This document shows positions 19,886 to 23,262 of a DNA stretch of 64,000 bases, piece after piece. The translations under genes were made by a program, and so were the position numbers. Location of the stretch: NCBI GenBank assembly GCA_903855995.1, contig CAIOAN010000007.1, positions 1-64,000 on the forward strand, in the 5' to 3' direction. The stretch is from an uncultured Opitutia bacterium (GTDB lineage Bacteria > Verrucomicrobiota > Verrucomicrobiia > Opitutales > UBA953). The stretch's first letter is position 1; every line of letters begins with the position of its first letter. The notes beneath the pieces were generated by a model. The model had not been told where the DNA came from. It made no database searches and saw nothing but the letters and a program-made list of their open reading frames with translations.

Positions 19886-20794
19886 TCACTCGGCCAAGCC
19901 GAGGATGGAGTGGGCGAAGGCCTTGGCGTCAAAGGGCTGCAGGTCCGCCGGTTGTTCGCCGACGCCGATGAAACGCACGGGGACACCGAGTTCGCGGACG
20001 ATGGCGACGAGCGCGCCGCCGCGAGCCGTGCCGTCGAGCTTGGTGACGATGAGGCCCGAGAGGCCCACCGCCTCATGGAAAACCTTGGCTTGTTCGATCG
20101 AGTTCGCACCGAGCGAGCCGTCGATGACGAGCCACTTCTCGTGCGGTGCGCCGGCGTGAGCCTTGGCGGTCACGCGGACGACTTTGCGCAACTCTTCGAG
20201 CAGGTGCGCCTTGGTGTGCAGTCGGCCGGCGGTATCAAGGATGACGATGTCGCAAGCGCGCGCCACGCCGGCTTTCACGGCATCGAAGGCTACCGCCGCG
20301 GGGTCGGCACCGGCCGCACCGCCGACGACTTGGACGTCGAGGCGATCGGCCCAAGCGGAGAGTTGTTCGCCCGCCGCGGCGCGGAAGGTGTCGCAGGCGC
20401 CGAGCAGGCAGGTGCGATTTTCCTGTCCCCAGCGCCAAGCGAGTTTCGCCGCCGTGGTCGTCTTGCCAGCGCCGTTGACGCCTAGGAGCATGATCACCCG
20501 AGGCTTGGCGGTGTCGACGGTGGTGGAAGGTGTCTCGCCGCCGAGCGCTTTCACGATGACGGCGGCCGCCGCTTCGGAAGGGCTGGCCTTGCGCAGGCCC
20601 GCATCGGCTTTCCAAGCGGCTTGGGCAGCGGCCACGATTTCCCCCGAGGTGGCCGGGCCGAAATCAGCTGCGATGAGGCGCTCGCGGAGTTGCTCCGCCG
20701 AGGTCGCATCCATCGGGCGCGCGAGCAGGTTGGCGACGGCTTCCGCCGTGCGGCTCAGGCCAGACTTCAGTCGTTCAAAGAAGCCGCCAGCCAT
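19886..20794 (-). CDS. ftsY: Signal recognition particle receptor FtsY
   Basis: GVNGAGKTTTAAKLA; DTFRAAAGEQL; DTAGRLHTK; TKLDGTARGGA. Confidence 0.96.
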   Translation of the reverse strand: MAGGFFERLKSGLSRTAEAVANLLARPMDATSAEQLRERLIAADFGPATSGEIVAAAQAAWKADAGLRKASPSEAAAAVIVKALGGETPSTTVDTAKPRVIMLLGVNGAGKTTTAAKLAWRWGQENRTCLLGACDTFRAAAGEQLSAWADRLDVQVVGGAAGADPAAVAFDAVKAGVARACDIVILDTAGRLHTKAHLLEELRKVVRVTAKAHAGAPHEKWLVIDGSLGANSIEQAKVFHEAVGLSGLIVTKLDGTARGGALVAIVRELGVPVRFIGVGEQPADLQPFDAKAFAHSILGLAE

Positions 20795-20797
20795 CGT

Positions 20798-21580
20798 TCA
20801 ATTCCCTTCGGCTTTGCGCGGATCGCGGCCCAGCTCTTCCTTATAGCTGTCCAGGATGCCGTTCACGAAGCGCTTGGACTCGTCGGTCGAGAATTCTTTG
20901 GCGATGTCGACGGCCTCGTTGATGCTGACGACCGGGGGGATGTCGGTGCGGCGCATCAGTTCGAAGATGGCGACGCGCAGGATCGCGAGATCGACCCGGG
21001 CGATGCGGGCGAAGGCCCAGTTCTTGGCATACTTGCCGATGACTTCGTCGATGAGGGTGACATCGCGGATCACGCCTTGGATCAGTTCCTCGGCGAAGGA
21101 AAAGTAGTCTCGGGGTTTCTCGCGTTCGGAGAAAAGATCGAACAGCGCGGTGACCATGTCCGCATGGCGCTGTACTTCCCAGGAACAGAGGAACTGCATG
21201 GCCAGGACGCGGTTGTCATGGCGGCGGTTACGCTTCGCGGGGGCGGCGGCCGGATCCGGCACGACCGGTTCGTCGGGGGCGGCGATGCTGATCTCAATGC
21301 CCGTCGGGAGGTTGATGCGGCGCATCACGTCGACGGTCTGCGCCGAGGAGTTGATAATCTCGATGTTGCGACGATGCCCCCGGACCTCGTCTTGGTCGGC
21401 TGAGCGGTAGACCTCGATTTGCGAAGGCAGCGGGAAGGGGCCGGAGATGCGTGCACCGGTGGGCGTCACGCTGGCGACGATATCCGAGGCGCATTGGTCG
21501 ACCATGCGGTAATCGATGCCCTTGATACGGATGCGTATCTTAGCGCGAGCGGAAGGGGAAATGGTAGATTCGGTGTCCAT
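20798..21580 (-). CDS. nusB: S10(NusE)-like domain fused to transcription antitermination factor NusB (260 aa)
   Basis: One continuous ORF. Residues ~14-99 match S10: KIRIRIKGIDYRMVDQCASDIVASVTPTGARISGPFPLP...TVDVMRRINLPTGIEISI; residues ~121-260 match NusB: RVLAMQFLCSWEV...ARIARVDLAILRVAIFELMRRTDIPPVVSINEAVDIAKEFSTDESKRFVNGILD. ATG at 21580 overlaps the ribH TGA. Confidence 0.9.
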   Translation of the reverse strand: MDTESTISPSARAKIRIRIKGIDYRMVDQCASDIVASVTPTGARISGPFPLPSQIEVYRSADQDEVRGHRRNIEIINSSAQTVDVMRRINLPTGIEISIAAPDEPVVPDPAAAPAKRNRRHDNRVLAMQFLCSWEVQRHADMVTALFDLFSEREKPRDYFSFAEELIQGVIRDVTLIDEVIGKYAKNWAFARIARVDLAILRVAIFELMRRTDIPPVVSINEAVDIAKEFSTDESKRFVNGILDSYKEELGRDPRKAEGN

Positions 21581-22116
21581 CAGTTCTGGGCAAAGGGTTC
21601 GGTACCGCCGCGCTTGCGCTCCTCGTCCTCGACTTGGTCGAGGCGCTCTCCGAGCGTGATGCGGTGGCGGGCCATGGTCAGGGCGGCGTGGCCAAATTCG
21701 GTGCCGCGGTCGAGCGCCCCCTGGCAGCGTTCGATCGCCTGTGCCCGGGTGTTGGTGACGATGATGCCGTTGATCACGGCGACTTCGGCGCGCAGGGCGA
21801 CGTCCTGCAGGGCCTTGGCGGTCGAGTGGGCGATGATCTCGTGGTGCGGGGTGTCGCCGGCGATGACGACGCCGAGGCCGATGACGCAATCGTAGTCGCC
21901 CGACATGGCTACCATGTAGGCAGCGTAAGGAATCTCACCCGAGCCCGGGACGTCGATCTGGCGGATATTGTCCTCCGACACGTTGGCGGCGCGGAGGGTC
22001 TTGACTAAGTTCCGACGCAGGTCCTCGACCAGTTCCCCGTTGTAGCCCGCCGCCACGATGGCGAAACGGAGTTCGGCGCCGTCGATGGCGTCAGGGATGG
22101 GCTTGTCTTGGCTCAT
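21580..22116 (-). CDS. ribH: 6,7-dimethyl-8-ribityllumazine synthase
   Basis: VPGSGEIPYAA; GLGVVIAGDTPHHEII; start MSQDKP at 22116. Confidence 0.95.
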   Translation of the reverse strand: MSQDKPIPDAIDGAELRFAIVAAGYNGELVEDLRRNLVKTLRAANVSEDNIRQIDVPGSGEIPYAAYMVAMSGDYDCVIGLGVVIAGDTPHHEIIAHSTAKALQDVALRAEVAVINGIIVTNTRAQAIERCQGALDRGTEFGHAALTMARHRITLGERLDQVEDEERKRGGTEPFAQN

Positions 22117-22185
22117 GGCAGAAGAACGAAGGGCCGATGGAGGGGTTTCCGACCCGACCTGCAAGCGGAAAGAGCAGGACTTGCC

Positions 22186-23262
22186 TCAGAACGGGACCTG
22201 TTCGACGATTTCGAGCCCGTAGCCGCTGAGGCCTACCACTTTGCGCGGGTTGTTCGTGATGAGACGGATGCGGCGCAGGCCGATGTGCGAGAGGATCTGC
22301 GCCCCGATGCCGTAATCGCGCGCATCCATGGAGCCGAGGCGCACGCCATCCTGATCCGCCTGCATGCCGCCGAAAGGTTGAGTGACGTGAACGATGACGC
22401 CGCGGCCGGCCTGGGCGACCGCTTCGAAGCTGGAAGCAAGTGATTCACCGGAGCCGAAGGCGCTGCCGTGGAATAAGTCGCCGAGGAGGTTTTCCCGCTG
22501 CACTCGGACGAGGGTCGGCGATTCATCCGGTTGGCCAAGCGTGAACGCGAGGTGCTGGCGGCCATCGGGTAGAGACCGGTAGACGCGCAGCTGGAATTCT
22601 CCCCACGCTGATTTGAACGGGGTTTCGGCGATGAGTTCAACCAGACGTTCGCGGCGGTGGCGGAATTCGATGAGCTGCGCGATGGAAATCATATGCAACC
22701 CGAACTTCTTCTTAAGTTCGACGAGTTCCGGAAGGCGCGCCATCGAACCGTCTTCGTTCAGGATTTCGCAGATGACGCCGCTGGGGTGCAACCCGGCCAG
22801 CGAAGCGAGGTCGACGGCGGCTTCCGTATGCCCCGCCCGCTGGAGCACGCCACCGGGTCGGGCGAGCAGCGGGAAGATGTGGCCGGGTTGCACGAGTTCC
22901 TCCGGCTTCGCCTGCGGGTCCGCGAGGATCGCGATGGTCTTGGCGCGGTCATAGGCGGAGATGCCGGTGGAGATGCCTTCCGCGGCATCCACGGAAACAG
23001 CGAACGCGGTGCGCTGGGACTCGCGGTTCTCAGGTACCATCTGGGAGATACCCAGCCGACGCAGCTGGTGCTCGACGGTTGGCACGCAGATGAGTCCGCG
23101 CGCATGGCGGATCATCATGTTGACGGTTTCGGGCGTGGCCTTCGCGGCCGCCATCACGAGGTCACCCTCGTTCTCGCGGTTCTCGTCGTCGGTCACGATG
23201 ACGAGCTTCCCGGCGGCGATATCCGCAAGGGCTTCCTCGATGGTGTCGAAGGGCTCGTTCAT
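22186..23262 (-). CDS. DHBP synthase with degenerate GTP cyclohydrolase II-like C-terminal domain (RibBX-like)
   Basis: N-term VTDDENRENEGDLVMAA...MIRHARGLICVP intact RibB; C-term RIRLITNNPRKVVGLSGYGLEIVEQVPF is GCHII-like but has no zinc-binding Cys. Confidence 0.9.
   Translation of the reverse strand: MNEPFDTIEEALADIAAGKLVIVTDDENRENEGDLVMAAAKATPETVNMMIRHARGLICVPTVEHQLRRLGISQMVPENRESQRTAFAVSVDAAEGISTGISAYDRAKTIAILADPQAKPEELVQPGHIFPLLARPGGVLQRAGHTEAAVDLASLAGLHPSGVICEILNEDGSMARLPELVELKKKFGLHMISIAQLIEFRHRRERLVELIAETPFKSAWGEFQLRVYRSLPDGRQHLAFTLGQPDESPTLVRVQRENLLGDLFHGSAFGSGESLASSFEAVAQAGRGVIVHVTQPFGGMQADQDGVRLGSMDARDYGIGAQILSHIGLRRIRLITNNPRKVVGLSGYGLEIVEQVPF

Follow-up and report, generated by a model that had tools for sequence, protein, structure and literature searches.

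Introduction

NusE is a textbook example of a ribosomal protein that also works in transcription, and because ribosomal S10 is essential, its two jobs are hard to separate. Residue V57 at the tip of the ribosome-binding loop of S10 contacts helix 31 of 16S rRNA, and deleting it impairs the growth of E. coli (PMC8249722). NusE on its own is unstable and aggregates, so laboratories use loop-deleted NusE together with NusB (PMC4642336; PMC6370827), and NusB, once bound, keeps S10 out of the ribosome (PMC10931766). On the NusB side, Tyr18, E75 and E81 form parts of the NusE-facing pocket (PMC9820117). Our literature searches, made in open-access sources, returned no report of an S10-NusB fusion. 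Here we describe a gene from an uncultured Opitutia bacterium that encodes both partners in a single chain, with the S10 part shortened at the ribosome-binding loop.

Results

One reading frame encodes S10 and NusB

The window (the whole stretch of DNA analyzed, 64,000 nucleotides of contig CAIOAN010000007.1) contains a single open frame of 260 amino acids on the minus strand of 20798-21580, with its start at 21580; on the plus strand this interval is interrupted by a stop codon (Table 1). The first-pass annotation had placed a one-frame S10 plus NusB protein of this length here, and both Pfam domains are indeed significant; the strand, which it had not given, is minus, and it did not mention the loop deletion, the confinement to a single genus, the two apparent losses or the altered NusB interface reported below. 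The gene order is ribBA-ribH-fusion-ftsY with all genes co-directional, and ribH is the neighbor at other fusion loci too. The fusion ATG overlaps the ribH stop, as had been noted, by one shared base (TGATG). It had also been proposed that no good internal start precedes the NusB part: a GTG does exist at codon 107, but no conserved internal start for a free NusB was found in the linker across the fusions, some of which have none at all. The linker is the fastest-evolving segment of the protein in comparisons of close relatives. The fusion also occurs in named public records, among them CAIRLQ010000323.1 at 97% identity. A frameshift, assembly error or binning artefact separating the halves was ruled out by the complete one-frame fusion in 39 different genomes.

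Table 1 Features of the S10-NusB fusion locus, in window coordinates.
Feature	Position	Strand	Basis
S10-NusB fusion gene, complete, 260 aa	20798..21580	-	Domain matches; kept complete in 39 genomes
S10 (NusE)-like domain, residues 14-100	21281..21541	-	Pfam PF00338, E 6.9e-13; S10/NusE fold in model
Site of lost ribosome-binding loop, residues about 59-63	21392..21406	-	Alignment
Pro/Ala-rich linker, residues 101-116	21233..21280	-	Low confidence in structure model; fastest-changing
NusB domain, residues 117-258	20807..21232	-	Pfam PF01029, E 3.8e-31; sole NusB of genome
Cys132, equivalent of E. coli NusB Tyr18, NusE interface	21185..21187	-	Tally; interface from PMC9820117
ftsY, immediately downstream of fusion	19886..20794	-	ORF list; neighbors of other fusion loci
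ribH (6,7-dimethyl-8-ribityllumazine synthase), upstream	21580..22164	-	ORF listed from TTG, true start uncertain
ribBA-like gene, upstream of ribH	22186..23262	-	ORF; function read from sequence

Both halves were identified by independent profiles. Residues 16-99 match Pfam Ribosomal_S10 (PF00338) with 49.1 bits against a cut-off of 21.2, and residues 122-246 match Pfam NusB (PF01029) with 108.7 bits against a cut-off of 23.1. The NCBIfam model nusB (TIGR01951) scores 130.7 bits, above its cut-off of 88.35, and rpsJ_bact (TIGR01049) gives 64.9 bits (E 6e-18), just below the equivalog cut-off of 72.75. A sequence search of the PDB returned S10/NusE matches over residues 11-100 and NusB matches over residues 113-249. 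The S10 and NusB assignments of the first-pass annotation therefore stand, and they extend to the homologs, in which the S10 part is unmistakable: both domains are significant in 39 of 39 fusions.

The structure model of the fusion, built on alignment A5, is folded in both halves (mean pLDDT 86, pTM 0.85); it replaced an earlier model on alignment A4, in which NusB was poor (pLDDT 58). In a Foldseek search the first half matched S10/NusE chains. Target TM-scores were 0.89-0.90 for the short NusE chains from NusB and NusG complexes (3r2c, 2kvq; 79-80 residues), and most full ribosomal S10 chains scored about 0.76. The second half matched NusB (3imq_A, 3d3b_A, 1tzv) with an rmsd of about 2. A chance resemblance to S10 was ruled out by the Pfam, NCBIfam, PDB sequence and Foldseek matches. 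The pTM of 0.85, the sole pointer to the relative placement of the halves, suggests that they take up a fixed arrangement.

The fused S10 has lost its ribosome-binding loop

When the fusions were aligned with E. coli S10 and the separate rpsJ product, the ribosome-binding loop was 9-17 residues short in all of them, and the position of V57 was gone. The fused S10 of the window is about 10 residues shorter at the loop than the separate rpsJ product. The loop is almost entirely absent from one fusion, that of G068, whose S10 half is very divergent, and it is intact in every separate S10 examined in the family.

The window's genome (2.66 Mb in 13 contigs, 97% complete) encodes one NusB, which is the fusion, and two S10 proteins. 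The second S10 is the product of an ordinary, full-length rpsJ with a complete loop in the str/S10 operon, where the first-pass annotation had advised looking for it; the gene order, with names read from the translations, is rpsL-rpsG-fusA-rpsJ-rplC-rplD-rplW-rplB. The single NusB match and the presence of rpsJ in the S10 operon rule out a hidden second NusB or a missing rpsJ. Besides nusG, the same genome has a weaker NusG-family match (G000:C9:97120-97527, L269), possibly a specialized NusG paralog.

These data bear on whether the fused S10 enters some ribosomes and brings NusB to the 30S subunit, as part of a specialized ribosome or as an assembly factor. NusB and NusE do promote 30S maturation in E. 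coli as well (PMC4807359), but the rRNA-contacting loop is short or gone in every fusion, a full S10 is retained separately, and complex formation with NusB keeps S10 off the ribosome (PMC10931766); we regard ribosome entry as highly improbable.

In the genomes sampled, the fusion is confined to one genus

The genus of the window consists of uncultured, mostly freshwater bacteria; public records of relatives mostly carry uncultured Opitutae or Verrucomicrobia MAG titles, many with lake-like isolate names. Two public records with this Opitutae gene (L127, L144) bear the names Akkermansia muciniphila and Polynucleobacter meluiroseus in their titles and are apparently misnamed MAGs. Among the 56 genomes of the genus, 39 have the complete fusion between ribH and ftsY, in two it is cut by contig ends (G153, G162) and nine encode NusB as a separate protein lacking S10 (G019, G128, G154, G164, G165, G174, G182, G196, G199); the remaining six were placed in none of these classes.

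Within the family (80 genomes) the fused S10 was seen in this genus only. In G146, which belongs to a different genus, an additional full-length S10 lies at the edge of what looks like a duplicate contig. A survey of the phylum, also suggested by the first-pass annotation, gave the same picture: in a sample of 390 genomes, matches containing both halves came only from the window's genus, and a second S10 was present only in the two fusion carriers, every other genome having one or none. Two genomes of genus g47 listed as 100% complete (G066, G543) have no S10 match; a sister genome has one.

Evolutionary history and selection

The history of the fusion was read from a tree of RibH, NusB and FtsY. 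The fusion carrier G068 branches as sister to all other members of the genus (support 91), and species with a separate NusB fall at two positions: a clade of eight genomes (support 100), and G019, the exact placement of which is weakly supported. The simplest reading of this sequence tree suggests one gain of the fusion followed by two losses. In the S10 tree the separate S10s group apart from the fused S10s (support 91), consistent with a single origin of the fused copy. Since it was apparently lost twice, members of the genus can do without the fusion. The eight genomes of the clade that lacks the S10 half (G128, G154, G164, G165, G174, G182, G196, G199) are small assemblies of 1.2-1.5 Mb, and the G019 assembly is 2.3 Mb.

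Both halves are under purifying selection. Among close relatives, median dN/dS was 0.068 in the S10 half and 0.042 in the NusB half; at larger distances the values were about 0.28 and about 0.1, respectively. Constraint thus acts on both halves, with the S10 half evolving more quickly than the NusB half. The fused S10 also evolves faster than the separate S10. R25 and D28, in the first helix, are among the residues that are invariant in fused as well as separate S10. The two apparent independent losses and the very divergent S10 half of G068 would fit an S10 half that is an evolutionary passenger of little function, tolerated until it is deleted. We consider this very unlikely given that dN/dS is far below 1, the frame is open in 39 genomes, and the invariant residues persist across deep divergence.

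The NusE-facing surface of NusB is altered in most fusions

The position of E. coli NusB Tyr18 holds Tyr or Phe in all 45 separate NusBs examined and is altered in 28 of the 39 fusions (Cys in 27, Val in one), a change that the tree places in at least two events. E75 varies in separate NusBs too and was dropped as a marker, so that only Tyr18 was used to follow the interface. The Tyr18 change may mean that NusB has adapted to a tethered partner, or that tethering has relaxed the constraint on this position; taken with the faster S10 half, it could also mean a weakened interface.

Both of these features, the altered Tyr18 in most fusions and an S10 half that outpaces the separate S10, would also fit a built-in blocker, in which the S10 half fills the S10 site of NusB without engaging RNA polymerase or NusG and so yields an inhibited or regulated NusB. 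We judge such a blocker unlikely: the genome has no second NusB that could take over the usual role, the S10 half is under strong purifying selection, and the residues that it has in common with ribosomal S10 stay invariant.

A boxA-like motif in rRNA leaders

The assembly of the window's genome contains no 16S gene or rRNA operon, and boxA was therefore read in relatives. The boxA-like motif CGGTTCTTTGAGAG is conserved, as a sequence match only, in 28 rRNA-leader loci of the genus, which include one species with a separate NusB (G199) and two with no fusion state called (G173, G187); one locus, L226, has an A variant ending in GAAAG. In G162, the one locus with a mapped 16S start, the motif lies about 200 nt upstream of 16S. 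In L218 and related leader loci a hairpin, whose sequence differs between lineages, stands just before the motif. Hairpin followed by motif is the boxB-boxA order known from rRNA operons. The consensus fold of this hairpin contains only one two-sided change.

Discussion

We put at roughly 0.8 the probability that the fusion is a single-chain NusE-NusB factor dedicated to antitermination and rRNA transcription and divorced from the ribosome. The presence, conservation and loop loss of the fusion are observed; the proposed function is deduced from what NusB and NusE are known to do. It is also probable that evolution has split S10 in two, with one copy serving only the ribosome and a loop-less, NusB-fused copy serving only transcription, so that antitermination is uncoupled from the pool of free S10.

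In the proposed course of events, a duplicate of rpsJ would have become attached to the N-terminal end of nusB in the ancestral lineage of the genus, and the attached copy would have lost its ribosome-binding loop. The S10 half would dock on its own NusB half as NusE does in E. coli, and the chain would reach boxA of the nascent pre-rRNA pre-assembled, with the exposed face of S10 contacting RNA polymerase and NusG. The ribosome would use the separate S10 only, and antitermination would no longer depend on, or compete for, free S10. NusB and a NusE-type S10 are encoded 1:1 in one chain, which would make the product an obligate 1:1 module, and perhaps a constitutive one, as the first-pass annotation had proposed.

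If this reading is true, nature appears to have separated the two jobs of NusE, leaving one S10 for the ribosome and fixing one loop-less S10 to NusB. It makes testable whether rRNA antitermination senses free S10 and which S10 surfaces serve transcription alone, and the species of the genus that have returned to a separate NusB provide a natural comparison.

Three described systems help to place the fusion. With the E. coli NusB-NusE complex on boxA it has in common the two folds, the presumed contact between the partners and a boxA-like rRNA leader; the E. coli partners, however, are separate chains and their NusE is ribosomal S10 itself, whereas the fusion is one chain with a private copy of S10. 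The bL31A/bL31B paralogs (PMC10931766) resemble the fused S10 in that a ribosomal protein is encoded twice, but both bL31 copies still serve in the ribosome, which the fused S10 appears unable to do. In its loss of the loop the fusion resembles the engineered complex of NusE-delta (S10-delta-loop) with NusB (PDB 3imq; PMC4642336). That complex is a two-chain laboratory construct, whereas in the fusion the loop was lost naturally and the chains are joined; the fusion would be a natural counterpart of the engineered NusE-delta:NusB complex.
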